DNA from: Bacteroidaceae bacterium | GTDB taxonomy: Bacteria; Bacteroidota; Bacteroidia; Bacteroidales; Bacteroidaceae | Assembly (NCBI GenBank): GCA_017464815.1 | Contig: JAFTYI010000001.1 | Location: forward strand, 1 to 36,960 | Reading direction: 5' to 3' | DNA: 36,960 nucleotides | Shown here: one piece after another, positions 8,280 to 28,330 of the stretch | Position numbering within the stretch: position 1 is the stretch's first letter | Layout: every line of letters begins with the position of its first letter | Translations under genes and position numbers: made by a program | Notes under the pieces: generated by a model | Told to the model about the DNA's origin: nothing | Seen by the model: only the letters and a program-made list of their open reading frames with translations | Databases searched by the model: none

Positions 8280-8452
8280 CTTAAGCGTAATGTTGCCACG
8301 CTTAAGAGTTGTCGGACGACGCTTAAGCATGGCTGGATATCTCTTAAGACTTACTGTGCTAACGCTTAAGAGTTACCGAGCTATCTCTTAAGAGATTTCC
8401 CGCTAACGCTTAAGAGATTTTTCAGCGGGCTTTAAAGGCTCAAGAATGCACT
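8280..8452. repeat. phased CTTAAG array (8 units, 21-22 bp period)
   Basis: CTTAAG hexamers begin at 8280, 8301, 8322, 8343, 8365, 8387 and 8409, with a degenerate eighth (TTTAAA) at 8431. The intervals are 21, 21, 21, 22, 22, 22 and 22 bp. The hexamer is palindromic; the 15-16 bases between copies vary, though several units share AGAGTT or AGAGATTT after the hexamer and GCTAACG or GCTATCT before it. The period is two turns of B-DNA, so all hexamers face the same side of the helix. No gene covers it. Confidence 0.9.
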
Positions 8453-8889
8453 AATTATCAATAGATTACAGATGAAAGGCTGTGAAGGGGGTATTGAAGG
8501 AGTTAGAGGAGTTAATCGCTTCGCTAAGGAATTAAAGGAGTTAAAACCATTCGGGCTGATACTATATAGTATGAGGGCGCAACGAATATAGTGTGAAGGC
8601 GAAAGCTGTGAATGAAGGTTTAGGGATTATTGTTTAGGGTGTAGGGTGCTGGTTTTTAGGCGATGGTGATGGCTGTTGGCTATGTTTGACATACGGTCGA
8701 TGAGGCTTGAAGATACGGATGTTAAGCGGTGAAGATTTAAATCTTCCGGGCGTTTCAACCCTTTCTGCAAACACTCATTGGTTGACCACGGGGCACACGG
8801 CTTACACAGAATGGGAGGGGCGGTGTCCATCCGTGTGTTCAGTGTGCTCCGTGGTCAAAAATGGAAAGTGCAGATCTGTGTCTGAGAAT
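8453..8889. other. non-coding stretch with a hairpin repeat (8782-8858)
   Basis: I see no convincing gene here. Around 8490-8545 there are short GGAGTTA-type direct repeats. A 17-bp inverted repeat (8782-8798 and 8842-8858, one mismatch, starting TTGACCACGG) encloses a loop with partial further pairing; its ACCACGG/GCACAC units resemble the ACGGATTACAC-type hairpins found later in the window. The two short open frames across this stretch show no recognisable protein. Confidence 0.5.
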
Positions 8890-10791
8890 TTACAGTTCCA
8901 CCACCAACGACTCGCGTGGAGCGAGCTTGAGTGTGCCCGTCAGATTGACGGACTTGCCGGTGAGGATGTCCCTTGCTGATGCTTTGCCGGAGGTGATTTC
9001 GGCATAACGCTCCATGGGAAGCTCGGCGGGCTTGGTGTTGCCGTTGAGGATGACGAGCACCGTCTGTCCTTCGTGTTGGCGGGCGTAGACGTAGCATCCG
9101 TGGAAGGGGATGAAGTGGGTGAGCGTTCCTTGGTGGATGGCCTTACAGCCCTTGCGCCAGTTGAGCAGTGTCTTGCACCAGTTGAACATGTCGTTTTGAG
9201 CCTTGCTGCGTCCTTGAGCGGTGAAGCAGTTGTGCTTGTCGCCGGGCCATCCGCCGGGGAAGTCTTTGCGCACGTGGCCGTCGGTCACTTGCTTGGTGCC
9301 GTTCATCAGCACTTCGGTGCCGTAGTAGAGCTGGGGGATGCGGCGCGTGGTGAGCAGCAGTGTCAGTGCCTGCTTCAGCATGGGCACGTCCTGTTCGTTG
9401 CGAAGGAAGCGGTCGGTGTCGTGGTTCTCGATGAAGGCCATCACACTGGCCGGGTTGGGATAGAGGTAGTCGTAGACAAAGTTGTTGTAGATGCGGTTCA
9501 ATCCCGTCCACCAGTCGTCGGTCTCTTCGGAGGCTGCTTGGTTAATCTTGTCGTAGAAACTGAAATCCATCACTGTCTTGAGGTTGCTGTTCAACTCTGC
9601 TACGGGGCTGTTCTGTTGCCAAGCGGCGGTGTAGGCAGGCTCGGTCACCCACGTTTCGCCCACCACGTTGAAGTGGGGATACTCTTCGTTCAGCTCGGCC
9701 ATCCAGTCGGCCATGGCACGTGCGTCGGCATAGGGGTAGGTGTCCATGCGGATGCCGTCGATACCAACGGTCTCAATCCACCACTTGCTGTTCTGTATGA
9801 GGTAGCGCATCACATGGGGATTCTTCTGGTTGAGGTCGGGCATGGTGGGGACGAACCATCCGTCCACCGTCTCGCGCAGGTCGGCTTTCGAGGCATAGGG
9901 GTCGAGCACGGGAGTCAGCTTGTACGATGTCTGCAGATAGGGTGTGTTCTGCACATTGTTGAGGCAGTCGGGGGTGTTGAGCCACTCGGGTTCGTTGAAC
10001 CAGTCCTTTGAGGGCATGTCCTTCACCCACGGATGTTCAAAGCCGCAATGGTTGAAAATCATGTCCATCACCAGCTTGATTCCTCGGGCGTGGCAGTCGT
10101 CGGCCAGTTGGCGGTATTCGTCGTTGGTGCCGAAACGGGGGTCAACGCGGTAGTAGTTGGTGGTGGCGTAGCCATGATAGGTGCTGTTGCCGCCGCGGTC
10201 GGGCGAGTTGTTCTCCAACACGGGAGTGAACCACAGGGCTGTGACGCCCAGCTCGGTAAAGTAGTCGAGGTGTTGGCGCAGACCTTCGATGTCGCCTCCG
10301 TGGCGCAGGCTCGGCTCTTCGCGGTTGACGGTGTAGTCGGCCATGCCGGGCTGCTGGTCGTTTTCGGGTTTGCCGTTGGCGAAACGGTCGGGCATGAGCA
10401 TGTAGAGCACGTCGCTGGCATCAAATCCTTGGCGGGCACTGCCTTCCATGCGGCGGGCGCGAAGTTCGTAACCGACCGTCTGTTTCTTCTTCCCCTTGGT
10501 GAAGGTCAGCTCCAACGTGCCCGGATGTGCCTCTTCATCGACATTCAGGTAGACAAGCAGGTAGTTGGGTGAATCAAGTTTTACCACACTACGCAGTGCC
10601 ACACCGTCGTAGTCGGCCAGCGAAACGTCGGCTTTGGCAATCCCTTTACCATAGACCATCAGCTGGAGTTCGGTCTGTTTCATTCCGGCGTACCAATATT
10701 CGGGTTCGATACGTTCGATGCTCTCCACCGCCTTGGCAGAGAGTCCTAAGCAGGACAAAAGAAGTCCCATGATGAGTGATGTCTTTTTCAT
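8890..10791 (-). CDS. susA: neopullulanase / alpha-amylase, GH13, SusA-like
   Basis: This 633-residue glycoside hydrolase should cut alpha-1,4 (and pullulan) bonds of imported maltooligosaccharides in the periplasm. An N-terminal signal peptide ends around SAKA (residue 21). A cyclomaltodextrinase N-terminal domain (about 22-115) is followed by the GH13 barrel. Catalytic residues are visible: nucleophile D350 in DGIRMD, acid/base E379 in VVGETW, and D458 in FIENHD; FNH at 246-248 is the first conserved region. Length and domain order match SusA of the Bacteroides starch system (about 617 residues). A possible lipobox LLSC (Cys14) leaves a small chance that it is a lipoprotein. It is the last gene of the malQ-pulA-susB-susA operon, 73 bp after susB with a hairpin in between. 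Confidence 0.88.
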   Translation of the reverse strand: MKKTSLIMGLLLSCLGLSAKAVESIERIEPEYWYAGMKQTELQLMVYGKGIAKADVSLADYDGVALRSVVKLDSPNYLLVYLNVDEEAHPGTLELTFTKGKKKQTVGYELRARRMEGSARQGFDASDVLYMLMPDRFANGKPENDQQPGMADYTVNREEPSLRHGGDIEGLRQHLDYFTELGVTALWFTPVLENNSPDRGGNSTYHGYATTNYYRVDPRFGTNDEYRQLADDCHARGIKLVMDMIFNHCGFEHPWVKDMPSKDWFNEPEWLNTPDCLNNVQNTPYLQTSYKLTPVLDPYASKADLRETVDGWFVPTMPDLNQKNPHVMRYLIQNSKWWIETVGIDGIRMDTYPYADARAMADWMAELNEEYPHFNVVGETWVTEPAYTAAWQQNSPVAELNSNLKTVMDFSFYDKINQAASEETDDWWTGLNRIYNNFVYDYLYPNPASVMAFIENHDTDRFLRNEQDVPMLKQALTLLLTTRRIPQLYYGTEVLMNGTKQVTDGHVRKDFPGGWPGDKHNCFTAQGRSKAQNDMFNWCKTLLNWRKGCKAIHQGTLTHFIPFHGCYVYARQHEGQTVLVILNGNTKPAELPMERYAEITSGKASARDILTGKSVNLTGTLKLAPRESLVVEL

Positions 10792-10815
10792 GTTTCTATA
10801 TAAATTTCAAATAGG

Positions 10816-10860
10816 AGACCCATCCCATCCCTCCCTCACAGGGAGGATGCAGGTGGGTCT
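10816..10860. repeat. intergenic hairpin between susB and susA
   Basis: The outer stem AGACCCA/TGGGTCT (10816-10822, 10854-10860) encloses an inner perfect CCTCCCT-CAC-AGGGAGG hairpin (10830-10846). In the operon's direction there is no T-run, so it is more likely an mRNA-stability or processing element, or a dispersed repeat, than a terminator. A shorter CTCCC/GGGAG hairpin stands near 30600-30619. Confidence 0.6.
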
Positions 10861-10864
10861 TATT

Positions 10865-14984
<4,120 letters not shown>

Positions 14985-14988
<4 letters not shown>

Positions 14989-17666
14989 CTTCCACTACGT
15001 TTTATTAAGGTTGAAATTTTGTCGTTCAGCGCCTGCTCGTTCATCAGTTGCTCGATAGTCAGGTGCATGCGATAGCGCCAATAGTGGCGCGGGTTGGCCG
15101 GTACGTTGATGCGTTCGAAGTCGGCGTCGGGATAGCGCAGCTGTTCGTCCATCGAAAGCCAATCCTGCAAACTGAGCAGGCAGAGCATCGAGGGGCAGAA
15201 GAGATGACGCGCCACCACTTCCTCGCAAAGCCATCCGGGCATGGGGTGGGGGGCTGTCCCTGCTTTTTGCAACACGTGGTTGTAGAAGCGTTGCGTGCGT
15301 TCGGTATCCTCGTCCCACCAACCGCGCAAGGTGGCCATGTCGTGAGTCGAGATGGTGGCAACCGAACGGTAGGGGTTTTCTTCCAAGTGGGCGAATTCGT
15401 ATTCGGGTTTCTTTGACATGCTCTGTATCTCCAGAGTCAGGATGCGCAGGTCGTTCATCACCCAAGGCACACAGGTGGGCACCATGCCCAAGTCTTCGGC
15501 GCAGACGAGCATACGGGTGGCGCCGGTGAGGACGGGCAGTTTCTTCATGGCCTCTTCGTACCAGAATTGGTTGTGGCGATGATAGTAATAGTCGTTGTAG
15601 AGGCGGTTGAATGCTTCCTTGTCGGCCCAACTGAGCGATTGGTAGAGATAGTCGTTTTGTGCGCTGATGCGTGGATGATACGCTCCCGGCACTTTACGGT
15701 CGGGGACAAAAAGGACGTTGCTGATGAGTGAGTAGAGACCGTCGCGCACCCAAACACTGTCGCTATCGGTGCGGCCTTGGAAGTGAGCCTCTACCTTGCG
15801 TTGGGTGTCAAACTCGGCTTTCATCTCATAGGTGCCGTCGCCCAAGCGGTTGAGGTAGGTGGTGCGCACCTCGTCGGCATGGCGACCAAAGAGGGTGTCG
15901 AGCATACCTTCAGCAATGTAGGGACGGGTGAAGAACTCTTTGCGGAAGTAGAGGCCGTAGCTCTCAATCTCCTCGGGCGTCATAGGCATGGCGGGCGAGA
16001 ATTGTCCTAAAAGTCCGTGTACGCTATGCAGGGGTATTTCCCAGATGCGGAAGAAGCCCAGCACGTGGTCGATGCGGTAGGCATCAAAGTATTCGGCCAT
16101 CTTGCTGAAGCGGCGAATCCACCATTGGTAGCCGTCGGCCGCCATGGTGTCCCAGTTATAGGTGGGGAAACCCCAGTTTTGTCCGTTCACGCTGAAGGCA
16201 TCGGGGGGTGCACCAGCTTGTCCGTTCATGTTGAAATAGTGAGGCTCTACCCATGCTTCCACGCTATTGCGGCTGATGCCGATGGGGATGTCTCCCTTGA
16301 TGACAACGCCCTTTTCGCGGGCATAGCGTCCGGCTTCGAGCAGTTGCACGTGGAGGAGGTATTGCACGTAGTAATAGAATGCAATCTCGGCTGCAGCTTC
16401 GCCGGTGGTCAGTGAGGCCACTTCGGCTGCGTTGTACACGGTGTGCGACGTCCAGGTGCGGAAGTCGGCCGTATGGTTAAGGTCGCGCAGGTAGCTGAAG
16501 GCGGCATAGGGGCGCAACCAATGTTGGTTGTCGGCGTAGAAGGTCTTGTATGCCAGTGTGGCCAGTGTCTTTTCACCTTGTTCCTTATATAATTGGCACA
16601 GATAGGCACGCTTGGTGTTGTTCACCGCCTCGTAGTCGATTTGTGCGAGGGCGTTCAGCTCTGCTCTTTTTGCTTCAAACTCGTCGCGCATCTTCTTGCT
16701 CTTCAAGGCAGGAAGCTGGCGCACATCCACGTATTGGGGATGGAAGGCGTAGATGGAGATGCTGTTATAGGGGTAGGAGTCTGTCCACGTGTGGTTGATG
16801 GTGGTGTCGTTGATGGGCAGAATCTGGATGACGCGTTGCCCCGTTGAAGCCGCCCAGTCAATCATCTTCAGCAGGTCGCCGAAGTCGCCCACGCCGAAGC
16901 TCCCCTCGGTGCGGAGCGAGAAGATGGGAATGACGCATCCGGCGCCTTTCCAGTCGCCCATGGGCAGAATGGCCGGCTCGTCGCTCAACACGTGCACTTC
17001 GTCCTCCTCCATATAGGGATAGCCCAACCGGCGGTTGTCGCGTGCCTCCCATGCCACCACTTGCCCCGTCTCTCCGTCCAAGGCCAGGTATTTGTAGTCG
17101 GCCACTCCTTGAATGGCATCCACGTCCACGGGAGTCATCCACACGTTGGGCGCCGTCTCCACCATGCGCACGGCACGGCTGGTGTCCCACTCTCCCCACA
17201 TGGGGTGGCTGCCGCTGATGGCCAACACCTGTCCGCGGCCCAGTCGGGGAGCCTCGGTGCGCAACACCAGCGTACGTCCGCCATAGGTCAGCTTGGGAGC
17301 AGCACCTGTGTGGCGGGTGAAACTTTCGGTGAAGGCCGAGGTGTAGAGGTAGGCATCCACGGGGATGTCGCGCCAGTGGTCACACAAGGTGTAGAGGCGC
17401 TCCTTCGCATCCAACGGGAGCTGGCGGACACCAGCAGCTATCCATTCACGGCGCACCACCTGGCCATCGTTCACCACTTGGTAGTAATACTCCATGCGGC
17501 GAGCCGACTTGGGAAGCTCCACTTCGCCGCTCCAGCAATAACCGTCCGTGGTGGTCATGGCCACCTCCTTCGTGCTCAATTTTGAGGCCGAAGAGCCATA
17601 GGTGAGCTTCACGCCCAACGCTTCTCCCCAATGAGTCCTATAAGCAATCAGAAAACGTATTTTCAT
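14985..17666 (-). CDS. malQ: 4-alpha-glucanotransferase (amylomaltase), GH77, with two N-terminal CBM20 domains
   Basis: The 893-residue protein transfers alpha-1,4-glucan segments between maltooligosaccharides. Two CBM20 starch-binding modules occupy about residues 1-100 and 128-230. The GH77 barrel follows with YRIDHVLGFF (nucleophile D533), KGDIPIGI, GAPPDAFS and, further on, CAEDLG (acid/base Glu) and STHDMATLRG. There is no signal peptide: the first CBM20 strand begins at residue 2, so the enzyme should be cytoplasmic, unlike the next three gene products. This length and CBM20-GH77 arrangement are usual for Bacteroidetes and plant DPE2-type enzymes. It is the first gene of the hydrolase operon, divergent from susC. 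Confidence 0.95.
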
Positions 17667-17722
17667 CGTATCAATATGGGTTTAATATGTTTATTATCTG
17701 CTTTTTAAGTTTATATCGCTGC

Positions 17723-17730
17723 CAAAGGTA
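17723..17730 (-). promoter_or_regulatory. putative -7 element for the malQ-pulA-susB-susA operon
   Basis: On the minus strand TACCTTTG matches the TAnnTTTG -7 consensus 57 bp before the malQ start. No TTTG -33 element is found at the expected 19-21 bp distance, so the promoter may need an activator. The palindrome at 17784-17799 is just upstream. Confidence 0.45.
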
Positions 17731-17783
17731 CGACAAAAATACAACCGTTATCGCATAGAATTGCAATTTAAACTGTTAAATAG

Positions 17784-17799
17784 TTGCAAACGTTTGCAA
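17784..17799. promoter_or_regulatory. LacI-family-type operator palindrome
   Basis: TTGCAAACGTTTGCAA is a perfect 16-bp palindrome with the central CG typical of LacI-family operators. It lies in the divergent malQ/susC intergenic region, about 54 bp upstream of the malQ -7 element. By position it could control both starch operons. No LacI-type or SusR regulator gene is present in the window, so the binding protein is unknown. Confidence 0.6.
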
Positions 17800-17821
17800 A
17801 TTTGCCTCAAAAGTTAATAAA

Positions 17822-17909
17822 CCTTAGCCTTGGGTTAAGGCTGCCTTAACCTTGGGAGGAATCGACCTTAGCCTTGGGATGAATCAGCCTTACTCCCCGA
17901 CTGGATTGG
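17822..17909. repeat. phased CCTTAGCC array (4 units, 22 bp period)
   Basis: CCTTA begins at 17822, 17844, 17866 and 17888, exactly 22 bp apart. The first three units share CCTTARCCTTGGG and the second and third also share GGRWGAATC; the fourth is diverged. A GGATTGG/CCAATCC palindrome follows at 17903-17918. The array lies between the operator and susC. Period and style match the arrays at 8280 and 25733, but the unit sequence differs. Confidence 0.85.
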
Positions 17910-18220
17910 CTCCAATCCCCGAGTGAACCGATTTGGGTCATCGAATGAGATTCGGCCTTGTCTCATCAACCATGTCTGTTGCTTCTTCATTTCAGTTGCA
18001 GAAGGTGTTTTCACGGCTCCTGCATGCCGCAATCGTTTGCACTCTTTATTGATAACATTTTTTGGCATAGTTTTCCCCTTTCCTGCCGAAAGGCATACTT
18101 TTGTCCCGTCGGAGAGTTTCCGAACGTTGCGTGTGCCCCCTTTTGACAATGGACAGACGCCTGATACTAAGGAAAATTCTATCATTCATTATTATTATTA
18201 TTAACTTTAATTAAAGACGC

Positions 18221-21200
18221 ATGAAGCAAGTTGATTCAAGAATCTTTCGATTGATTCTTACCCTGTTGTTCGGGGTATTCTTGTCAGTGGGCGCTTATGC
18301 ACAGAGCATCACCGTGAAAGGTCACGTGAAGGACGCGTTGGGCGAAGTCATAGGTGCCAATGTAGTTGAGAAAAGCAATCCGGGAAACGGTACTATCACC
18401 GATGTGAACGGAAACTTCTCTCTCAAGGTAAAGCAAGGTGCAACGCTTGTTGTATCCTTCGTTGGTTATGTCACTCAAGAGGTGAAGGCCGCTCCCAATG
18501 TCACCATCACATTGGAGGATGATGCCGAACTTCTGGAAGAGGCCGTAGTCATCGGTTACGGTGTGGCGAAGAAGAGCGACCTGACGGGTTCTGTTATCGC
18601 CATGAAGCCCGACTTGAAGAACAAGGGTGTGGTCATCAACCCACAAGACATGATGGTGGGTAAGATTGCCGGTGTGAACGTAACCAGCAGCGACGGTACA
18701 CCTGGTGGTGGCACACAGATACGTATCCGTGGAGGTTCGTCACTGAACGCCAGCAACGACCCCCTTATCGTCATCGACGGTGTGGCCATGGATAACAACG
18801 GTATCAAGGGTGTGGCCAACCCCCTTTCACTCATCAATCCGCAGGATATCGAGAGCTTCAACGTGTTGAAGGATGCCTCTTCAACTGCTATCTATGGTTC
18901 TCGTGGTTCTAATGGTGTTATCATTATCACCACCAAGAAGGGAAGCAAGGGACAAAAGCCTCAGGTTTCATACGCAGGAAGCTTGACTGTCAGCACTAAG
19001 AAAAACTCCATCGACGTAATGGATGCTAACGAATATCGTGCTTTCATCAAGGATATTTGGGGTGAAGAAAGCGATGCTTATCGTGCATTGGGTACGGCCA
19101 ACACCGATTGGCAGGACGAAATCATGCGTACTGCTATCAGCCACGACCACAATGTGACATTGTCCGGTTCATTCAAGAATCTGCCTTATCGTGCATCTGT
19201 GGGTTATACTGATCAAGAAGGTATTATCAAAACTTCAGAATTCCAACGTGTGACAGCTTCGTTGAATCTTAATCCTACATTCCTCGACGACCATTTGACC
19301 ATGAACCTCAATGCCAAGGGAATGTATTCAAGAAGCCAGTATGCTGATGGTGAAGCTATCAGCGATGCTATCGTATTTGACCCTACACAGGATCCTTACG
19401 ATTATACTTCAGATTTCCACAATGCCATGTTCAATAAGTATGACGAAGAGCATGGATATCCTGTCGGAACTACTTTGGCTGCAACTTGGGAGAATATGGG
19501 ACACTATTTCGAGTGGCCTATGGCTGGTGCATACAATGATGATACTTGGCCTTATACTTATAATAACTTGGCTCAGAAGAACCCCTTGGCAATCCTTAAT
19601 GAGAAACACAATGTGGCTCATAGCCGTGCTTTCATCGGTAGTGCTGATGTTGATTATAAAGTACATGGTTTCGAAGATTTGCGTCTGCACATGACATTGG
19701 GTGCTGACATCTCTAAGGGTCGTCAGCAGACGAATACAACACCGGTTTCACCGCAAGCTGTTTATTACGGAAACTATGGTGCTGATGAAATCCTGAAGCG
19801 CAACCTTTCGTTGAATGCTTATGCACAGTATTACAAAGACTTCAACAAGAACCACCATTTCGACATCATGGGTGGTTACGAATGGCAACACTTCTGGAGA
19901 AGCCAAAACAACGACTATGTAGGCTATTATCCTACTACGAATAACGATGCCTCGTTGGCAGGTACAGAGCGTCCGCACACTCCTTACAAGTTCAAGACCG
20001 AGAACTATTTGGTATCATTCTTCGGACGTGCCAACTACATCCTTAACAACCGTTACTACCTGACCGGTACCATCCGTTACGACGGTTCTTCACGCTTCTC
20101 TGACCACTGGTCGCTCTTCCCCTCTGCCGCTTTTGCATGGAAGGTGAAGGAAGAAGCCTTCTTGAAAGATGCCGATTGGCTCTCTGACTTGAAACTCCGC
20201 CTTGGTTATGGCCAGACGGGTCAGCAGGATGTGAACAACGACTATGCATGGGTTCCCACCTATTCAATGTCAACCGGCACAAACAGTTTCTATCCGCTGT
20301 TGGGCAACGGCACACTCTATCGTCCCGACAACTATACACCCGACCTCAAGTGGGAGACTACTACGACTTACAACGTAGGTCTTGACTTCGGTTTTGCCAA
20401 CCAACGCCTCACCGGTAGTGTGGACGTGTACTATCGCGAAACAACCGACCTGTTGAACTACGCACCCACCGTTTCCATGTCAGCCTTCCGTAACCAGGCT
20501 TGGCAGAACATCGGTTCACTGGAAAACAAGGGTGTCGAGTTGACATTGGATTGGAAGGCCATCCAGACGAAGGATTGGTTCTGGACACTTAGCTACAACG
20601 TGACTTACAACCAGAACGAAATCACCGACCTCAGTGGCGTTTCTACCGACGGCGAGCCTGTTGCCAATACGGGTATCACCATCGGCACCGACAAGTACTT
20701 GCAGTACAATCAGGTGGGACAACCCATCAACTCATTCTACGTTTACCAGCAGGTTTACGACCAGAATGGAAAGGCTATCGAGAACTGCGTGGTTGACCGC
20801 AATGGTGACGGACAGATTACCGAAGGCGACCGCTACTTCTATAAGAGCCCGGCTGCTCCTGTCACTATGGGGTTGACTTCACGTTTGGAGTATAAGAACT
20901 GGGACTTCGGCTTCTCGCTCCGTGCCAGCTTCGACAACTATGTGTTCAACAACATCGAATCAGGTTATGCCAACTTGAACAAGAATGAGATTTGGGCCTC
21001 TACCCAATTCCTTTCCAACCGTCCGACATGGACAGTTGCTGACAATTGGCAGACTTATTCTCCTACCGCTTTGCTCTCTGACCGCTACGTACACAATGCT
21101 TCATTCTTGAAGTGCGACAACATCACCTTGGGTTACAGCTTCAAGAACCTCTTCAAGGGTGGCTCATACAAGGGACTTGCCGGCCGCGTGTATGCTACAG

Positions 21201-21322
21201 CGTCTAACGTGTTCACTATTACCAAATATGACGGTCTCGATCCCGAAATCTCCAATGGCTATGACAACGAACTCTATCCGCGTCCGTTCTCATTCCTCGT
21301 GGGCTTGAACCTGAATCTTTAA
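18221..21322 (+). CDS. susC: SusC-like TonB-dependent outer-membrane transporter
   Basis: This 1033-residue protein is the outer-membrane pore for starch oligosaccharides, working with the SusD lid. A signal peptide ends at AYA (residue 27). A carboxypeptidase-D-like regulatory domain (about 30-105) is followed by EEAVVIGYG, the TonB-box/plug junction typical of SusC/RagA, then the plug domain with IRGGSSLNASNDPLIVIDG and a long beta-barrel ending in a hydrophobic strand (FLVGLNLNL). It is the first gene of a plus-strand operon: susD follows after 21 bp. The regulatory domain and SusD partner place it in the SusC family rather than among siderophore receptors. Starch specificity is inferred from the neighbouring hydrolases. 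Confidence 0.95.
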   Translation: MKQVDSRIFRLILTLLFGVFLSVGAYAQSITVKGHVKDALGEVIGANVVEKSNPGNGTITDVNGNFSLKVKQGATLVVSFVGYVTQEVKAAPNVTITLEDDAELLEEAVVIGYGVAKKSDLTGSVIAMKPDLKNKGVVINPQDMMVGKIAGVNVTSSDGTPGGGTQIRIRGGSSLNASNDPLIVIDGVAMDNNGIKGVANPLSLINPQDIESFNVLKDASSTAIYGSRGSNGVIIITTKKGSKGQKPQVSYAGSLTVSTKKNSIDVMDANEYRAFIKDIWGEESDAYRALGTANTDWQDEIMRTAISHDHNVTLSGSFKNLPYRASVGYTDQEGIIKTSEFQRVTASLNLNPTFLDDHLTMNLNAKGMYSRSQYADGEAISDAIVFDPTQDPYDYTSDFHNAMFNKYDEEHGYPVGTTLAATWENMGHYFEWPMAGAYNDDTWPYTYNNLAQKNPLAILNEKHNVAHSRAFIGSADVDYKVHGFEDLRLHMTLGADISKGRQQTNTTPVSPQAVYYGNYGADEILKRNLSLNAYAQYYKDFNKNHHFDIMGGYEWQHFWRSQNNDYVGYYPTTNNDASLAGTERPHTPYKFKTENYLVSFFGRANYILNNRYYLTGTIRYDGSSRFSDHWSLFPSAAFAWKVKEEAFLKDADWLSDLKLRLGYGQTGQQDVNNDYAWVPTYSMSTGTNSFYPLLGNGTLYRPDNYTPDLKWETTTTYNVGLDFGFANQRLTGSVDVYYRETTDLLNYAPTVSMSAFRNQAWQNIGSLENKGVELTLDWKAIQTKDWFWTLSYNVTYNQNEITDLSGVSTDGEPVANTGITIGTDKYLQYNQVGQPINSFYVYQQVYDQNGKAIENCVVDRNGDGQITEGDRYFYKSPAAPVTMGLTSRLEYKNWDFGFSLRASFDNYVFNNIESGYANLNKNEIWASTQFLSNRPTWTVADNWQTYSPTALLSDRYVHNASFLKCDNITLGYSFKNLFKGGSYKGLAGRVYATASNVFTITKYDGLDPEISNGYDNELYPRPFSFLVGLNLNL

Positions 21323-21343
21323 TTCTAATAAAGTAAAATAGTC

Positions 21344-22951
21344 ATGAAGAAATATATGAAGAATATTATCCCGATGGCGGCCATTGCCCTGTCGTTAGGA
21401 ATGGCATCATGTACGAGTGACTTGGATGTTGAACCTATCAACCCCAATCTCTCTCTTGATTACGATGTCAACGGATTATTTAATAAATGCTATGCAAACA
21501 TTGCTCTTGCCGGTAACGGTGGTGCAAATGGCGATTGCGATATTGATGGTCTTGATGGAGGTACTACCGGTTTCATCCGTCAGATGTGGAACTCCAACGA
21601 GTTGACCACCGATGAGGCCATCTGCCACTGGGGCGACGATGGTATCCAGAGCTTTTGCTACAATACCTACGATGCCTCGCATCCGATGCTCAACGGCTAC
21701 TATGCCCGTTTGACAACAGGTATTTCATATTGTAACCAATATCTGAATGTGGCATCAGGTCATGATGCTACGATGACGGCCGAAATCCGTTTCATCCGCG
21801 CCTTGCATTACTATATGCTGATGGATGCGTATGGAAACATCCCCTTTGCAACTTCGCTGACTCAGCCCTCACGTATGACACGTGCCGAGGCTTACGCTTG
21901 GTTGGAGACCGAATTGCTCGACCTCGAAGCTGACCTCTCCGATGCTAAGGCAAAGAAGTCAACCGATGCCAACTATGGCCGTGTGGACAAGGCAGCCTGC
22001 TGGATGTTGCTCTCACGCCTCTACTTGAATGCCGAAGTTTACACTGGTACTGCCCAGTGGCAAAAGGCTGCTGACTATGCTCAGTTGGTAATGCAGTCTT
22101 CATACAAACTTCACACAGCGGGAGTGAATGGTTGGAGTGCTTACCAAATGCTCTTCATGGGTGACAATGGTGAGTCTGACGCTGCTTACGAAGGTGTGTT
22201 CCCCATCTTGCAGGATGGCTTGACCACCACCAGCTGGGGTACTTCACTCTATTTGATTGCTGCCACTTATGATGCTGACATGCACTCTAATCCCAACGAT
22301 CCCGTTGCCACCAATGGCACCGATCAGAACTGGGGTGGAAACAAGGCACGTCCCGACCTCATCAAGAAATTCTTCCCCAATGGCAATGCTCCTCAGGTGA
22401 ACGCTTATAACATGACCGAAGCTGCTGGCGACGACCGTGCACTGTTCGATGGCGTTGGTCGTGAAAGCATCGAGAATACCAAAGGTTATCTGGGTGACTT
22501 CAAGGATGGTTACGCCGTGGCTAAGTTTGTCAACTTCAAGAGCGATGGTAGTGCCGGACACGATGCAACGTTCCCCGACATGGACTTCTTCTTCTTCCGT
22601 GTGGCCGAGGCTTACTTGACCTACGCCGAAGCAACCGCCCGATTGAACAACAACACGGCAACTGCTGAAGGCATCCAAGCCATCAACGACTTGCGCGCTC
22701 GTGCCAATGCTGCCACTAAGGCCGGTTATTCGATGAACGACATCTTGGACGAGTGGAGCCGCGAGTTCTACTTCGAAGGTCGTCGTCGTGTTGACCTCAT
22801 CCGCCATGGTAAGTTCGGTGGTAACAACGACTACACTTGGCAGTGGAAAGGTGGCGTGAAGGAAGGCCGTAACATTGATGCCACCAAGAACATCTTTGCT
22901 ATCCCCGCCGCTCAGGTGAAGGGTGCTATCACTCAAAATCCCGGTTATTAA
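21344..22951 (+). CDS. susD: SusD-like starch-binding surface lipoprotein
   Basis: This 535-residue protein is the SusD/RagB partner that closes over SusC and binds the glycan at the cell surface. The signal peptide ends in GMAS before C23 (lipobox). SusD hallmarks include helical TPR-like segments (IRFIRALHYYMLMDAYGNIP near residue 145) and the C-terminal signature EWSREFYFEGRRRVDLIR. Acidic residues after the Cys fit the Bacteroidetes surface-export signal. It lies 21 bp after susC and 7 bp before the susE frame. Confidence 0.95.
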   Translation: MKKYMKNIIPMAAIALSLGMASCTSDLDVEPINPNLSLDYDVNGLFNKCYANIALAGNGGANGDCDIDGLDGGTTGFIRQMWNSNELTTDEAICHWGDDGIQSFCYNTYDASHPMLNGYYARLTTGISYCNQYLNVASGHDATMTAEIRFIRALHYYMLMDAYGNIPFATSLTQPSRMTRAEAYAWLETELLDLEADLSDAKAKKSTDANYGRVDKAACWMLLSRLYLNAEVYTGTAQWQKAADYAQLVMQSSYKLHTAGVNGWSAYQMLFMGDNGESDAAYEGVFPILQDGLTTTSWGTSLYLIAATYDADMHSNPNDPVATNGTDQNWGGNKARPDLIKKFFPNGNAPQVNAYNMTEAAGDDRALFDGVGRESIENTKGYLGDFKDGYAVAKFVNFKSDGSAGHDATFPDMDFFFFRVAEAYLTYAEATARLNNNTATAEGIQAINDLRARANAATKAGYSMNDILDEWSREFYFEGRRRVDLIRHGKFGGNNDYTWQWKGGVKEGRNIDATKNIFAIPAAQVKGAITQNPGY

Positions 22952-22958
22952 ATTCTAA

Positions 22959-24176
22959 ATGACAATGATTATGAAAAATATATTTAAATCATCATTGCTG
23001 TTGTTGTGCGGTGTGTGTCTGTTCACCGCTTGCGAGGATGACAATGACTCCAATCCTACGTTGCAACAGCCCACAACCTTTGTGCTGAATACACCTTCGT
23101 ATGCGGCATCGGCCATCGACTTGGCCACCTCTACTGAGATTCCTTTCACGTGGTCACAGCCCGACTACGGTTTCCCTGTGGCTGCTCAGTATCAGTTGCA
23201 AGTGTCGCTGACCGAGTCTTGGACAGTGTCTGTCGATCAGGCTTCAGCCGATGAGAGTGGTGCTACCGTGGCCGATTATGCGACTATCGAAGATGTCTTC
23301 TCTCAGACTAAAGGCGCACTCAATGCTGCCAAGTTGGCAAAGGCTTTGCAGCAGGTGGCCCTTTGGCCGGCCGAAGCTGTTCCTGCCACACAGCTTGTAC
23401 ATGTAAGAGCTATTTCAGTGCTCAATGCAGATACTGTCTACTCTAATTGCGTAGAGGTGAATGTGATTCCTTACTACGTAGAGTTGAAGGATGCAGCCCC
23501 CGTATTGTGGTATCTGGTAGGTAGCTGTATTGGTGATGGCTCATGGGGCAACAGTGCCGATGGTATCGGCAAGGGTCTGATTCCTTTGATGACCATTGCT
23601 GGTGAGGAATATGACAAGGCCACCGGTACAGGTAAAGTTTCTTACACTGGATTCTTCCCCGCAGGTGGTCAGTTCAAGTTGGTTGAAGTGCCCGGAAGCT
23701 GGGATTCACAGAAGAACTTCGATTCATTTACTGGCATCGACGCCACATTGTTCGAAGGTAACACTGACGGCAACGTGGTTATCAAGGATGGTTGCGCAGG
23801 TTACTACACCGTGACTCTCGACACCAAGTCGGGCGACATCACCATTGAACCCTACACTGCAACCACTCCGAATGTGTTCTCTTCAATGGCTATACCTGGA
23901 GGACACAATGAATGGAATGCCGCAGGTGACCCGATGACCGCTACGTTCACTTACGATGGAGCCGAGAATCACTTGTGGACCACCACGTTGACACTGGGTG
24001 CCGATGCTGAAATCAAGTTTGCAGCCGATGGTGCTTGGGACTTCAACTGGGGTGCAACAGAGTTCCCCTATGGAACCGGTACACAGAACGGTAGCAACAT
24101 TCCTGCCAAGGCGGGCGTATACACCGTATTCTTGAATGACATCACAGGTCAGTACATGTTTATTGCTAACGAATAA
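22959..24176 (+). CDS. susE: SusE-like outer-membrane lipoprotein, two starch-binding modules
   Basis: The 405-residue lipoprotein begins with a SusE N-terminal domain (about 30-170, with FTWSQPDYGFPVAAQYQLQVS) and carries two carbohydrate-binding modules of the SusE/F type, starting near APVLWYLVG and TPNVFSSMAIPGG. Two modules is the SusE number; SusF has three. Lipidation is expected at the Cys of LFTAC, followed by EDDND, a surface-export-like acidic tract. The true start may be the internal ATG at 22971 (MKNIFKSS), which gives a tighter signal peptide. It binds starch on the surface without catalysis. Confidence 0.88.
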   Translation: MTMIMKNIFKSSLLLLCGVCLFTACEDDNDSNPTLQQPTTFVLNTPSYAASAIDLATSTEIPFTWSQPDYGFPVAAQYQLQVSLTESWTVSVDQASADESGATVADYATIEDVFSQTKGALNAAKLAKALQQVALWPAEAVPATQLVHVRAISVLNADTVYSNCVEVNVIPYYVELKDAAPVLWYLVGSCIGDGSWGNSADGIGKGLIPLMTIAGEEYDKATGTGKVSYTGFFPAGGQFKLVEVPGSWDSQKNFDSFTGIDATLFEGNTDGNVVIKDGCAGYYTVTLDTKSGDITIEPYTATTPNVFSSMAIPGGHNEWNAAGDPMTATFTYDGAENHLWTTTLTLGADAEIKFAADGAWDFNWGATEFPYGTGTQNGSNIPAKAGVYTVFLNDITGQYMFIANE

Positions 24177-24191
24177 ATCAGTTAAAGAAAT

Positions 24192-25586
24192 ATGAAAAAG
24201 ATAGTTTATACACTGGGCCTCGCTTTGCTGGCTGCAAGCTGCTCAGAGGATTATAAGGATTGGTCTGTTCCTCAGACCAATCCGCAGGAGGATGCCAAGA
24301 GTGTAGCTATGGAAACTGCTACTGCTGCCGACGTGGATTATGCTACATTGGACAGCTCATTGGTTCAGATTTTCAAACCTACGGTTACCTCCGTGGACGA
24401 AGGTGCCACCTCTTATAAGGTGACTCTTTGGAACGATGGTAAAACGGCAAACGGCACATTGGCTGCTAACGACAGTGGATATGTTTCTGCCGACGAATTG
24501 AAGACCGTGGTAGAAACCATCTATGGCAAGCGTCCTGTAGCACGCAAGTTGTATCTCGACATTGCCGGATACACCGTCATCAACGGACAGAGCATCATGA
24601 CCACTGCTGAGGATTCAGTGAATGTGACCCTCAAGGCTCCCTTTATCTCTAATGCTTATTACCTTATTGGTGATATGTTGGCTTGGAGCAAAGAAGGTGC
24701 AAAAGCCTTTACTCAGAAAGGTTCGGGAGATGTTTATGATAATCCTGAATTTGAGATTATCTTTACCATTACTGCAACAGAGGAAAAAACCAACGATTGG
24801 TATTGGAAAATTGTTCCTGCGACCAACTACGATGGAGAAAACTTCTGGTATGAGGGTGAAGATGGTATCGTGGGTGTTGCTGTAGATGGCGACGACAGTT
24901 TTGAGGGTAGCTTGGTGACAACGACTCCTCAGGCTGGTAAGATTGTGAACCCTGGTATTTACAGAATGACAATCAACATGATGCAATATACCTACAAATT
25001 GGAAGAACTGAACTTTGGTGAGTTCATCTACGAAATCGGTAATGAATCTGGTTGGGGTACTTCTCACGCTCTCCGTGGCCAAAACTTCGACGGTAAGTAT
25101 CAGGGTTACTATTGGATGAATGGTGAGTATAAGTTCAAGCCCAATGCCGACAACTGGGATGGCGACTGGGAAAACGACGGTGAAGGCAAGATTGCCGATA
25201 ACGGTGGTTCCAATATGCCGGGCCTCGAAGCAGGCTTCTATCAGATTGATGTAGACCTTGCTGCTATGACTTACGCTGCTACTAAGGTAGAATGCATCAG
25301 CATCATTGGCACCGTGAATGGAAATTGGGACACTGATACCGATCTTACTTACAACCAAGAGACTGGTGCATGGGAAGTAATTGCCGACTTGAACGCCGGT
25401 GAGATGAAGTTCCGCATGAACCACGATTGGGCTGTAAGTTGGGGTGGGGCCAATGGCGATGCCACAAACTATGGTGATTTGACACAGAATGGTGGTGCTA
25501 ACTTGCAAGTGGCTGCCGGCAAGTATCTTGTTCAACTCTATATCCAGTACGAAGGAGTTAACAAGGTTGTGCTCACTCCGCAGTAA
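24192..25586 (+). CDS. susF: SusF-like outer-membrane lipoprotein, three starch-binding modules
   Basis: This 464-residue lipoprotein has a lipobox at LAASC (C17) and an acidic SEDYKD tail after it. An N-terminal Ig-like region (about 20-145) precedes three carbohydrate-binding modules, starting near residues 152 (FISNAYYLIGD), 275 (FGEFIYEIGN) and 368 (ECISIIGTVNG). Three modules and about 470-485 residues match SusF of the Bacteroides starch system. It is the last gene of the susCDEF operon, 15 bp after susE, and a strong terminator follows 27 bp downstream, where SusG would stand in the classical operon. Confidence 0.87.
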   Translation: MKKIVYTLGLALLAASCSEDYKDWSVPQTNPQEDAKSVAMETATAADVDYATLDSSLVQIFKPTVTSVDEGATSYKVTLWNDGKTANGTLAANDSGYVSADELKTVVETIYGKRPVARKLYLDIAGYTVINGQSIMTTAEDSVNVTLKAPFISNAYYLIGDMLAWSKEGAKAFTQKGSGDVYDNPEFEIIFTITATEEKTNDWYWKIVPATNYDGENFWYEGEDGIVGVAVDGDDSFEGSLVTTTPQAGKIVNPGIYRMTINMMQYTYKLEELNFGEFIYEIGNESGWGTSHALRGQNFDGKYQGYYWMNGEYKFKPNADNWDGDWENDGEGKIADNGGSNMPGLEAGFYQIDVDLAAMTYAATKVECISIIGTVNGNWDTDTDLTYNQETGAWEVIADLNAGEMKFRMNHDWAVSWGGANGDATNYGDLTQNGGANLQVAAGKYLVQLYIQYEGVNKVVLTPQ

Positions 25587-25613
25587 GCATTCTTCCCCAT
25601 TGAATAACATCCT

Positions 25614-25650
25614 GCACGCCTCGGAGTCTCACTCCGGGGCGTGCTTTTTT
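25614..25650 (+). terminator. intrinsic terminator of susCDEF
   Basis: A G/C-rich hairpin pairs GCACGCC...CGGAG with CTCCG...GGCGTGC (25614-25644) across a 5-base loop with one mismatched pair, followed directly by TTTTTT. It lies 27 bp after the susF stop. Confidence 0.9.
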
Positions 25651-25732
25651 CTTCTGCATCGCCATGCGTTACTGCCTTATCCCATTACCGTATACACCTT
25701 TACCGCATTAACATCCTAATCTTGCAACCTTA

Positions 25733-25820
25733 TCACATCTGTGATGAAGTCTGCTCACATCCGTGATTAAGTTTGCTCACAGATGTGATTAAGTATGCTC
25801 ACAGATGTGATAAGGTCTAT
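25733..25820. repeat. phased TCACA array (4 units, 22 bp period)
   Basis: TCACA begins at 25733, 25755, 25777 and 25799, exactly 22 bp apart. Each unit holds a TCACA..TGTGA palindrome followed by TKAAG or TAAGG; units 1 and 3 are each other's reverse complement in that 12-bp core. Weaker ATTAMC/TTATCA units about 23 bp apart precede it (25684, 25707, 25730). It sits after the sus terminator, in the same style as the arrays at 8280 and 17822. Confidence 0.85.
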
Positions 25821-25835
25821 AAATCCTATAGTTTA

Positions 25836-25892
25836 GCGGGTAAAGATGCGTGTCGTGGCGGATAAAGATGCTTTTCGTAATGCCTTTATCTG
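25836..25892. repeat. two-unit 22-bp repeat plus inverted third unit
   Basis: GCGGGTAAAGATGC at 25836 is repeated as GCGGATAAAGATGC at 25858, exactly 22 bp later. A third element, TGCCTTTATC at 25881, is the same core in the opposite orientation. It adjoins the TCACA array but is out of phase with it by 15 bp. Confidence 0.6.
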
Positions 25893-25942
25893 AGGAGGTC
25901 TTATGGACATGATGAATAGTGAAAAAAAAGTTTCATTTAGCC

Positions 25943-26184
25943 GAGATGAAGAGGCTATGCCAAAAAACTGACGAATGGCTTCGTCGCAGAATCCGCATGT
26001 GTATTTGGAAAACTTGGAAGCCCTCAAGATCAAGGTTGCAAACCTTATCAAATGTGGTATAGACAGATGGCGAGCCTATCAATGGGGCAACACCCGTAAA
26101 GGTTATTGGCGAATAGTTGACAATGTGGTGTTGAAACGGGCGATTCCTAATACATCTCTAAAGTTGGCAGGTTATCCAGTCTGA
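25943..26184 (+). pseudogene. group II intron reverse transcriptase/maturase, C-terminal fragment with frameshift
   Basis: One frame reads EMKRLCQKTDEWLRRRIRM then CIWKTWK, and a second frame, from about 26020, continues KVANLIKCGIDRWRAYQWG then NTRKGYWRI and stops at 26184. Together these are the well-known end of LtrA-type maturases, split by a frameshift between 26018 and 26030. The reverse-transcriptase domain is absent. Confidence 0.85.
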
Positions 26185-26303
26185 TGGATTTATATTTCGA
26201 GTGGAATCGAAAATAGGAACCGCCGTATGCCGAACGGCACGTACGGTGGTGTGAGAGGTCGGAAAACGAAAGTAGGAAGAAAACTACTTCGTTTTCCTCC
26301 TAC
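25943..26303 (+). mobile_element. degraded group II intron, 3' end only
   Basis: This is the tail of a group II intron: the maturase C-terminus is followed by ribozyme domain V at 26217-26250 (34 bases, AACCGCCGT pairing with ACGGTGGT) and a domain VI hairpin at 26261-26297 (GGAAAACGAA/TTCGTTTTCC, with an unpaired A). The intron end should be near 26300. The 5' half, including domains I-III and most of the reverse transcriptase, is missing, so it cannot splice or move. It stands between the sus terminator and the promoter of the next operon. Confidence 0.85.
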
Positions 26304-26326
26304 TCGATTAATAAAAAAGGTGATTC

Positions 26327-26452: not shown

Positions 26453-28330
26453 ATGAGAAAGAGAACTTTGCATTCCTTGGCGTTGTGTGCAGTGGGTGCG
26501 TTCCTGCTCTTACCTTCGTGTGTGGAGGTGAACGACGATTACGACTTGAGTGGCGACATTGACATGACCATCAATGCCGGTGGTGACCTGACCTTGCCCA
26601 CAAGCGGCACGGTGAAACTGAAAATGAAGGATATCCTTGACTTGGAAGAGGACGGTATCATCCAGCCCATTGGTGAGGATAGCGTCTACTACCTGGAAAA
26701 AGGTGCTGACAAACCGTCGACCTTCGAATTTGAATTGCCAAGTATTACGGTGGATGATCCTACGTTGGAGCCGTTTGAACTGAAGTTTACGGTGCCTACG
26801 TTGGAGACGTTGCTTGGTGCATTTGGATTCCCTCAACAGACCATAGACTATGTTGTTGCAAACAAAAACAATGTGGCATTGTTGGAAACCCTTTTGGGTG
26901 ATAAAATGTATGAAGTGCAGGAATCACCCGAAATCGAATTGGACAAGGGGTTCAATGTGCTGAACTATGATTTTACCATGCCCGAGGAAGTTACAGGATT
27001 GAAAGAGATTGGTTTCTCGGTGCCGATGCAACCCGATTTTGATCTGACTACGAACATGCCTACAGGACAGCTAGGATTGCATGACGTGAATGCTGAATTT
27101 CCGGCTATGTTGAATCACGATAATATCACATTTGGTGGTACTTGGCTCGGTCACTTGAATGAACATGGTCGTCACCAATACAATTTGCCAAAAGATGTGT
27201 GGTTGAAGAATGGAGATCATACTCGCCTTGAACTAGAATTTGTGTCTATTGACTTGTCTGCAAATCCTTGGGAAAGAGCCGCAAATCCGAATGGAATGTT
27301 AACGATTGCTGAAGAGGTGGCTATGCATGGAACTGTAACGGTAAAGGGTTCTGTCGTAGACTTTCTGGCTTTGGCTGGTGAAACATTTACATTGACGGCC
27401 ACAATCAACATGAAAGCTCCTGAAATCGGCGAAGTAACCGTGATGGTCAATCCCGAAATCAATCCTGAATCAACAACCATTGAGTTGAACGACTTGCCCG
27501 ACTTCCTGACCGAGAATGATGTGACGGTGGTGTTGCAGCAACCGGCCATCCGATTGGACATCATTGCTGAAGAGACAACTACGCACGAGCCTCTGCCTGT
27601 GATTGTTGAGTGTTGGGGAGCCTTGGATACCGACAAAGGCATCAATGTGAACCTTGGTAGTGAGGCTGCTCCTGAAATCACCATCGGTGGCGAAGTGAAC
27701 TCCAGCTGGTGCATCTGGGATGGAACGTCGCAGCCTGCTTGGGGTAGCGAGTACGCCTATTACCAGGCTGAGAACCTGGTGAACATCATCAGAGAGATTC
27801 CCGAACGGATAGACTTGAGCTTCGAAGCCCGTGTGAAGCAGGAGTACATAACAATCCCCTTGGGCACATCATACAAGGCAAGCATCGACTACAACGTAGA
27901 GTGTCCCTTAGCCTTGGCCAACGGTTCTCAGATTGTCTATAGCGAAACGGTGGATGAACTTGGGGCAGACTTGGACGGCATCGAGGTGAAGGAACTGAGG
28001 ATTACCGCCATGTTGCACGTGCAGGATGTCGATGGTGGCGACAACATCCCGTTTGACAAACTCGACCTGACAGTGATTCCCCTTGACAAAAACGGAAATC
28101 CGATTAACGGTATAAACGTTGATCCGTTGGAAAATGTAAATAGTGGTGATAAGATTGTGTTGCACTTGACTTGTGAAGAGGGGGCTATGGAGAACCTGGA
28201 TGCTCTTACCTTCGAAGTGGCAGCCAAGGTGACCACTGACAGTGCTGCTCCGTTGAGCGCCAAGACAACTGTTCAGTTGACCAACGTCAGCGTAGGAATT
28301 ATCGGCGGTGTGATTGCCGACTTGAACTAA
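26453..28330 (+). CDS. large lipoprotein of unknown function
   Basis: The 625-residue protein has a lipoprotein signal peptide (LLLPSC, Cys23) followed by VEVNDDYD, an acidic stretch that fits surface export. The rest is rich in beta-strand and in acidic residues, with repeated amphipathic segments such as FELPSITVDD and FELKFTVPT; I recognise no catalytic motif. It overlaps in arrangement with the next gene (7-34 bp gap) and probably forms an operon with that outer-membrane barrel protein. A partnership at the outer membrane is an inference from synteny only. Confidence 0.8.
   Translation: MRKRTLHSLALCAVGAFLLLPSCVEVNDDYDLSGDIDMTINAGGDLTLPTSGTVKLKMKDILDLEEDGIIQPIGEDSVYYLEKGADKPSTFEFELPSITVDDPTLEPFELKFTVPTLETLLGAFGFPQQTIDYVVANKNNVALLETLLGDKMYEVQESPEIELDKGFNVLNYDFTMPEEVTGLKEIGFSVPMQPDFDLTTNMPTGQLGLHDVNAEFPAMLNHDNITFGGTWLGHLNEHGRHQYNLPKDVWLKNGDHTRLELEFVSIDLSANPWERAANPNGMLTIAEEVAMHGTVTVKGSVVDFLALAGETFTLTATINMKAPEIGEVTVMVNPEINPESTTIELNDLPDFLTENDVTVVLQQPAIRLDIIAEETTTHEPLPVIVECWGALDTDKGINVNLGSEAAPEITIGGEVNSSWCIWDGTSQPAWGSEYAYYQAENLVNIIREIPERIDLSFEARVKQEYITIPLGTSYKASIDYNVECPLALANGSQIVYSETVDELGADLDGIEVKELRITAMLHVQDVDGGDNIPFDKLDLTVIPLDKNGNPINGINVDPLENVNSGDKIVLHLTCEEGAMENLDALTFEVAAKVTTDSAAPLSAKTTVQLTNVSVGIIGGVIADLN

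Follow-up and report, generated by a model that had tools for sequence, protein, structure and literature searches.

Intergenic repeat arrays with a shared 22-bp step and frequently palindromic units in a Bacteroidaceae genome and its relatives

Why should repeat arrays of unlike sequence, placed around one bacterial starch locus, share the same period? The question is raised by a stretch of 36,960 nucleotides from a Bacteroidaceae bacterium (GenBank assembly GCA_017464815.1, contig JAFTYI010000001.1), which was analysed as a whole and is called the window here. An earlier reading of the letters only (the sequence-only reading) had noticed three arrays with a period of 21–22 bp, termed A1, A2 and A3 in the following, and had proposed that they share period and intergenic position rather than sequence. 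We find that the arrays belong to dispersed families of intergenic repeats, that about half of the arrays of this period are built from palindromic units and that a 22-bp step is common to unrelated sequences across the family.

Tandem Repeats Finder gives a period of 22 at all three places and also for an adjoining array, A3b, so the arrays as such exist; all four are intergenic (Table 1). Their unit cores are unlike: CTTAAG in A1, CCTTA...TAAGG with a CCTTGGG centre in A2, TCACAnnTGTGA in A3a and GCGGATAAAGATGCG in A3b, which adjoins A3a but has another unit, by eye without a palindrome. The core spacings of A1 are 21, 21, 21, 22, 22, 22 on the plus strand, corresponding to 22, 22, 22, 21, 21, 21 on the minus strand, and its spacers are variable. 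The recurring TTAAG/CTTA-type core that had also been claimed is present in A1, A2 and the A3 linker; it is missing, by eye, from most other array families listed for the source genome.

We determined the occurrence of this period in 32% of the source genome (835 kb), using home-made gene calls based on a hexamer score. Regions repeating at lag 22 (44-base windows, 70% identity) numbered 29 in intergenic and 3 in coding DNA, compared to 17 and 2 at lag 21 and 12 and 0 at lag 23. The density of lag-22 regions is 36-fold higher in intergenic (178 kb) than in coding DNA (657 kb). Samples of 200 kb from three other genomes of the family showed intergenic and coding counts at lag 22 of 6 and 0 in G009, which belongs to the same genus as the source, and of 4 and 0 in G019 and 3 and 0 in G022, which belong to other genera. 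No other lag below 44 was occupied in these three genomes except 6, 7, 11 and 12, with one or two regions each and in G009 only. A sample of 435 kb contained 25 intergenic and no coding regions at lags 21–24, and no region was left at lags 20, 21, 22, 23 and 44 when the same sample was shuffled once within 100-bp blocks, a control that covered these lags and not lag 24. Identity thresholds were set by hand (72% in the shuffle test, 70% in the lag counts, 68% in the gene-context count and in the palindrome and hairpin tests, 66% for the palindromes of G009), the genome stretches were not drawn at random and several stretches from other families are shorter than 10 kb.

A threshold-free count of recurring intergenic hexamers, with z-values taken against an ad hoc background omitting harmonics of short periods, placed lag 22 at the top of lags 12–60 in the source genome and in G009, G016, G017, G019, G022, G023 and G024. 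It thus ranks first in eight of the 11 family genomes sampled and second in one more (G021); a further family genome, G018 (3.5 kb), entered the pooled hexamer figure only. With a crude frame mask, five family lag-22 hits fell inside an 'open reading frame' and one outside; better gene calls were used for the hexamer-recurrence count. In 14 genomes of other families of the order (pooled, 269 kb) lag 22 reached 22 counts at a mean of 21.9 (z = 0.0), and lags 23 and 21 led with 47 and 43 counts. The units found at the shared 22-bp step are unrelated in sequence between families and genera. Neither 22 nor 23 is divisible by 7, 8 or 9, in contrast to 21 and 24. The proposal of a shared period withstood this comparison because an intergenic excess at 21–23 bp in unlike sequences is present both in the sampled third of the source genome and in sampled stretches of other genera of the family, the lag-22 regions lying predominantly between genes. 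This hints at an activity in the cells that produces or recognises the spacing and not the sequence itself. Besides, the source genome contains 9-bp arrays, CTATAGNNN and TCTAGANNN, together with their harmonics. Such arrays lie on contigs C39 and C42 (e.g. C42:40324-40389, C42:56678-56745). They consist of a 6-bp palindrome and 3 variable bases, and 15 intergenic and 2 coding regions were counted at lag 9 in the 435-kb sample. Paired with each other, two adjacent 9-bp units would give a 6-bp stem closed by a 3-base loop.

Each array of the window was then used as a query against the source genome (2.63 Mb in 58 contigs, 78.7% complete). A1 gave 13 matches at eight places, itself included; six of the other places were matched at E <= 1e-11 and one more weakly. 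At least 38 matches were obtained for A2, itself included (40 of 55 candidates scored), and 15 at nine places for A3, again including itself and with some places matched on both strands. A control segment beside A2 (17930-18090) is single copy and gave one match. Among same-genus genomes, the source included, A1 is present in 7 of 15, A2 in 6 and A3 in 2, and none of them was found in 26 other genomes. Four of 19 A2 loci of the source genome have an orthologous locus among 15 fetched from relatives. A3b accompanies A3a-type DNA on contigs C56 and C40 and is solitary on C10. The dispersed repeat adjoining A1 (8560-8740) has 32 matches in the source genome, itself included, the four best others being 85–93% identical; its left part (8558-8605) shows a 22-bp step by eye (ACTATATAGTATGAGGGCGCA / ACGAATATAGTGTGAAGGCGAA), and a lag-22 array at C39:149648 is related to it. 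The A2 leader TTAACAAACCTTA had 25 loose hits, 7 of which are true array leaders by eye. A connection of the leader to stop codons or gene starts yielded no rule, five of the seven facing a divergent gene start and two following a stop. Carriage by phages was considered and set aside: a CTTAAG trio at exact 22-bp steps occurs in 10 viral contigs (L280-L289; one or two expected by a rough count), the AAACANNNNTGTTT pair in none. In G009 about 2.2 kb lacking any convincing gene (locus L205, ~13220-15495) contain a 22-bp array, and parts of this gap recur near other arrays of that genome.

We also assessed whether the units are palindromic. Against a control in which the columns of the unit were shuffled, a palindromic unit was detected at p<0.05 in 67 of 131 arrays of period 21–23. 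For the remaining periods from 15 to 40 the figure is 5 of 37 arrays (omitting 18, 27, 33, 36 and 39; arrays overlapping a 21–23 array were counted only as such). The 131 arrays were drawn from the source sample, G009, G019, G022, other stretches of the family and 50 public loci. In the 67 palindromic arrays the arms carry about 1.5 bits of information and the positions 8–10 bp from the centre about 1.0, a difference partly expected since columns that are conserved and symmetric are favoured by the palindrome test. Three palindromes of G009, AAACAATATTGTTT, AAACACTTGTGTTT and AAGTATAATACTT, succeed each other every 22 bp, separated by spacers of ~8 bp. Public examples include L058 (CAJOEI010000021.1), L062 (CACYYG010000005.1), L046 (JAFXDL010000185.1) and L047 (JAFUZD010000030.1). 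When palindromes were paired regardless of their letters, a first script found an excess at 9, 11, 18 and 22 bp. The pairs 22 bp apart are mostly alike (11 unlike of 25 in the source genome, 0 unlike of 21 in G009), and this result is therefore not used as proof of a letter-independent spacing. Among palindromic hexamers of the source genome CTTAAG accounts for 16 of 27 at lag 22 and 10 of 15 at lag 21; in G019 none was found at lag 22.

The spacing of A1 was compared between 21 loci. Three consecutive 22-bp spacings, mostly with a spacing of 21 on one or both sides, are present in 20 of them when steps of 19 to 24 are allowed; the exception is L139, the only locus from G007. An alignment of 18 copies (source, G002, G005, G006, G012, G013) runs over 126 columns without a gap, L007 (longer), L139 (short) and L149 (near-identical to L145) being left out. 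The cores are nearly invariant and the spacers variable, i.e. A1 combines a fixed spacing with diverged spacers. Covariation is modest: the intra-unit palindromes were reached by 9 of 500 shuffles and a dyad at unit 3 by 16 of 500, and related sequences can beat shuffles without any structure. Hairpins between adjacent units showed no covariation, as 434 and 375 of 500 shuffles reach them. Intra-unit mismatches of the types G.U (38) and A.C (44) are about equally frequent, a pattern that a site recognised as DNA would show, and a reading at the RNA level is therefore not favoured within the units, though this does not extend to the dyad, where G.U exceeds A.C (89 vs 58).

Two orthologous sites permitted a comparison with neutral positions. 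One array, of the A2 type, lies between a soj/parA-like and a parB-like gene, both named from their translated sequence, and is identical in 62 of 68 columns among four species, compared to 154 of 306 third codon positions; 48 of 112 columns are identical in the remaining spacer. At region I, where orthologues were found by their flanking genes, 54 of 82 array columns are identical among three species compared to 92 of 250 third positions. Both arrays are thus conserved above third codon positions, and at both the spacers between the cores are conserved between orthologues. Unit numbers differ between species: the soj-parB spacer of the source has one extra unit, a clean difference of 22 bases, another site has 4, 2 and 5 units in the source, G013 and G012, and the array next to it 8, 3 and 0 cores in the same genomes (the last two comparisons by eye). 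Between the orthologous loci L161 and L026 two A2 palindrome centres are flipped, CCTTGGG in one and CCCAAGG in the other.

Porphyromonas gingivalis is a member of the same order and of a different family. Among the published elements found, BrickBuilt of that species comes closest to the arrays, a minisatellite related to miniature inverted-repeat transposable elements (MITEs) that is, as far as the parts of the article consulted describe it, intergenic, dispersed and made of 23-nt tandem units without separators; the units are imperfect with a conserved and a variable half, long stem-loops are predicted and unit number changes at conserved loci (PMC4596501). One unit family with leader and tail is described for P. 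gingivalis and P. gulae, IS5-like terminal repeats and, at some sites, target duplications are given, and tandem repeats of 22 and 23 nt had been noticed earlier in strain W83 (PMC4596501). A second article mentions BrickBuilt, its main text containing neither '22-bp' nor 'tandem repeat' (PMC5771137). The arrays described here resemble BrickBuilt, on the parts just cited, in being intergenic and dispersed, in their near-equal unit length, in tandem units that follow one another without separators and are imperfect, with a conserved and a variable half, in the long stem-loops predicted and in a unit number that varies at conserved loci. They differ in comprising many unrelated unit families with periods of 21–24, most often 22, instead of one 23-nt consensus, in the palindromic units of about half of them, in that no shared terminal repeat or duplication was found and in their occurrence in several genera of another family. 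A scan of the window for the BrickBuilt-type terminal repeat GAGACCTTTGCA gave 4 matches at <=2 mismatches, where 3.66 are expected by shuffling; none flanks an array and the nearest is at 26461. The STAR elements of Staphylococcus, judging from the abstract, are intergenic direct repeats with internal spacers whose loci expand and contract, the spacers being conserved by locus and lineage and maintenance by selective or molecular forces being presumed (PMC3532100). Common to both is a conserved core alternating with spacers conserved between orthologues, here at two sites; the host is another one, and the STAR abstract names neither a palindromic unit nor a helical step. Repetitive extragenic palindromes (REPs) and the BIME and REPIN elements are extragenic palindromes of 20–40 bp in many copies (PMC3733652, PMC3116915). 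Short extragenic palindromes in many copies are found here too. The gene of the REP-associated transposase RAYT (PF01797, Y1 transposase) was detected in 5 of 15 genus genomes; among the matches listed, the RAYT-like gene on contig C11 of the source, the only copy looked at, is not flanked by A1–A3, and elements driven by RAYT were rejected on this ground. This gene (locus L238, Y1_Tnp, 345 aa) is flanked at 760-1170 and 2300-2530 by other tandem repeats with units of about 70–90 bp, by eye. REPs also differ from these arrays in unit order, step and sequence families. Plasmid iterons, e.g. the 22-bp repeats of R6K, are tandem protein-binding sites of about 17–22 bp in helical register that lie at the replication origin beside the rep gene; the arrays share the tandem sites of such length and differ in being spread over the chromosome in many families. 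Full-text searches of the open-licence literature gave, among the matches listed and judged by title and opening of the abstract, no paper on an intergenic step of 22 bp that is independent of sequence in these bacteria.

Fixed spacing with diverged spacers and conservation above neutral positions lead us to favour a protein that reads the spacing over repeated generation by one process. The arrays would then be several dispersed families of intergenic palindrome rows, dimer-type sites two turns apart that are held by one or more putative DNA-binding proteins, a reading to which we give slightly less than an even chance. Each element would be a row of short palindromes with cores of about 6 to 14 bp joined by variable spacers, the distance between palindrome centres being close to two helical turns (22 bp, in some families 21 to 24). 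Each palindrome may bind a protein dimer, and neighbouring dimers would occupy almost the same side of the helix and touch each other, so that the spacing would be constrained and the spacer letters free. Different families might answer to different proteins or to one sequence-tolerant protein, and the bound row could influence adjacent genes or the way in which the DNA is packed locally. A wider version, which we consider speculative and rather improbable, is a family-wide system with tens to ~200 rows of palindromic sites per genome, a number extrapolated from the array count of the source sample, in many rapidly changing sequence families that keep to a step of two turns; a protein recognising the spacing, or several paralogues with different letters, would build short filaments that control neighbouring genes or fold the chromosome, the spacing rule being inherited and not the sequence.

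Several observations count against a spacing-reading protein. Neither a binding protein nor a correlated gene was found for the arrays, many unrelated families in one genome are not easily read by one protein, and 64 of the 131 arrays of period 21–23 are not detectably palindromic. With periods of 21, 22, 23 and 24 all present in the source genome, the step does not follow the helix strictly. G015 and G020 show no elevated lag 22, lag 21 ranking first in the latter, and the peak in some family genomes rests on one to three arrays in 34–60 kb. In the 50 public loci pooled, lags 21 (400) and 14 (366) exceed lag 22 (301), which equals lag 24 (301) and has a z of 4.1. The A1 loci, 20 of 21 with this spacing, were retrieved by BLAST with a single query, a choice that may favour copies without gaps; the 21 loci are only part of the places behind 75 listed matches, and some are near-duplicates (L144/L148, L145/L149). 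Likewise the orthologues behind the 62 of 68 identical soj-parB columns were found by A2 similarity, which favours conserved copies. Arrays are also lost or replaced at orthologous sites: the A2-type array of region I is present in the source, G013 and G005 and absent from G012, G014, G002 and G006, two of these four species carrying 9-bp arrays there by eye. A bias in gene context was not seen among the 60 arrays of the source genome sample.

Dispersed families would equally be expected if the arrays were MITE- or REP-like hairpin repeats, non-autonomous mobile elements whose palindromic units would form hairpins in RNA or single-stranded DNA, spread by a putative transposase with the 22-bp step as a by-product of growth as in BrickBuilt. 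Several arrays are predicted to fold as one long hairpin, inverted flanks bracket some of them (L058, L249-L251; by eye), a P-Q-P unit order is found at two loci of G009, and unit number varies at the site with 4, 2 and 5 units. The covariation within A1 units and along the unit-3 dyad, above most shuffles, and the G.U excess of the dyad point the same way. Against this reading, a convincing target-site duplication was not seen: a 6-bp flank match is found in 7 of 21 A1 loci, with none longer up to 9, compared to about 3.5 expected by a rough count. The one clean difference between species amounts to one 22-bp unit. Sites without the array exist, their flanks aligning too poorly to show a junction. 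Terminal repeats, duplications or a transposase could not be tied to the arrays: the BrickBuilt terminal repeat is not near those of the window and the RAYT-like gene on C11 has no A1–A3 array beside it. The hairpins between adjacent A1 units lack covariation, and A2 positions are partly shared between relatives (4 of the 19 loci). The idea that one global hairpin defines the arrays was rejected although single cases are striking: hairpin order beyond the unit palindromes is weak over 130 arrays, 5 of them standing at rank <=1 of 40 permutations where 6.3 are expected, with a mean z of -0.42. We regard a mobile origin as doubtful, with a substantial minority chance.

Confinement to intergenic DNA and variable unit numbers would also follow from neutral tandem duplication, i.e. 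slippage or template switching in unconstrained DNA, promoted by palindromes, with a functionless 22-bp step set by polymerase or repair geometry. It is consistent with this that other short periods such as the 9-bp CTATAGNNN and TCTAGANNN arrays are abundant, that one array type replaces another at the same site in other species and that palindrome centres are flipped between orthologous units. Against it stand the conservation above third codon positions at two sites, cores that are conserved with spacers that are not, the exact spacing in nearly all A1 loci including the spacing order kept by dispersed copies, and the same step with unrelated units in different genera; neutral duplication therefore appears quite unlikely to us. 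A function in RNA, where transcribed rows of hairpins in untranslated regions would act in stability, attenuation or protein binding, is suggested by the predicted folds, by the position of the soj-parB array between two co-directional genes, by the leader end of the region I array, which stands about 15 bp before a start codon, and by the G.U excess along the A1 dyad. G.U does not exceed A.C within the A1 units, A3 lies beyond a hairpin-plus-T-run after susF (by eye), and rows of hairpins do not require 22 bp. At gathering scores Rfam matched only a group II intron in the window and nothing in five 20-kb stretches of G009 and G019. An RNA family was thus dismissed for want of an array match and of a G.U excess within units, and we hold action as RNA to be very unlikely.

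Intergenic repeats are usually sorted by sequence, and surveys made in this way would miss the class because its sequence differs by family and genus while the 22-bp step is shared. If a protein sets the step, the arrays would point to a widespread, unexplained level at which a major family of gut bacteria organises or regulates its DNA, and testing for lag 22 would offer a simple route to the gene accompanying them; if a mutational process sets it, the step would be a clean signature of that process.

The sequence-only reading had also placed the arrays in relation to the starch locus, which they were said to bracket and divide, and had asked whether such arrays mark operon borders. By Pfam the locus consists of a GH13 cyclomaltodextrinase, GH97, pullulanase and GH77 on the minus strand and of SusC-type (TonB-dependent), SusD-type and SusF-type proteins on the plus strand. 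By coordinates the description is literally true. It is not an unusual arrangement: the source sample contains 60 arrays in 835 kb (lags 21–24, intergenic regions of 60–2500 bp), one per 14 kb, and 1.27 arrays are expected in the 17.6 kb concerned, with P(>=3) = 0.13 and P(>=4) = 0.04. In the nearest public locus found, L044, susC-F is collinear and SusF 84% identical, and A2 and A3 are absent. A starch-specific regulatory role was rejected since the families are dispersed, the clustering is not significant and this sister locus lacks A2 and A3; the link to the starch locus looks coincidental. The 60 arrays are located in 10 convergent, 19 divergent and 31 co-directional regions, compared to 13.3, 13.1 and 33.6 expected by length, and thus follow intergenic length. 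In G009 the numbers are 5, 4 and 0 of 9 (2.1, 2.9 and 4.0 expected by length), a sample too small to carry weight, and the divergent gaps of this genome, about 2 kb long, may contain genes that were missed. A bias towards operon borders or terminators was accordingly abandoned, and the idea that the arrays mark such borders or the starch locus is not supported.

Table 1. Repeat arrays and neighbouring features of the window (TRF, Tandem Repeats Finder)
Feature	Positions	Strand	Basis and remarks
Array A1	8280..8422	-	TRF (8343-8420, period 22), core spacings (CTTAAG cores by eye 8280 to 8414), ungapped alignment with 17 other copies
Short 9-bp-type repeats GGAGTTA / AAGGAATTA adjoining A1	8494..8549	none	TRF 8526-8545, rest by eye
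Dispersed repeat adjoining A1	8558..8740	none	Matches elsewhere in source genome
Array A2, divergent promoter region	17814..17897	+	Leader TTAATAAACCTTA, then CCTTA(G/A)CCTTGGG(A/T)... units, ~22 bp; TRF 17844-17892, 22 bp, only 2.2 copies
Array A3a	25727..25819	+	ACCTTATCACA...TGTGATAAGGT with TCACAnnTGTGA palindromes every 22 bp, ~4 units; TRF 25733-25818, 22 bp, 3.9 copies
Array A3b, GCGGATAAAGATGCGTGTCGTG, 2 units	25836..25878	+	TRF, 22 bp, 2.0 copies
Group II intron 3' end, domains V/VI	26218..26308	+	RF00029, 45.8 bits (gathering score 40); right neighbour of A3, outside the array

Two further features of the window lie near the outer arrays. Upstream of the group II intron end, at 25900-26200, an apparent truncated intron-encoded protein is seen by eye. 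A short open reading frame at 7623-8087 matches PF13310 (RhuM) at positions 16-65 of 252 only and is likely a fragment.

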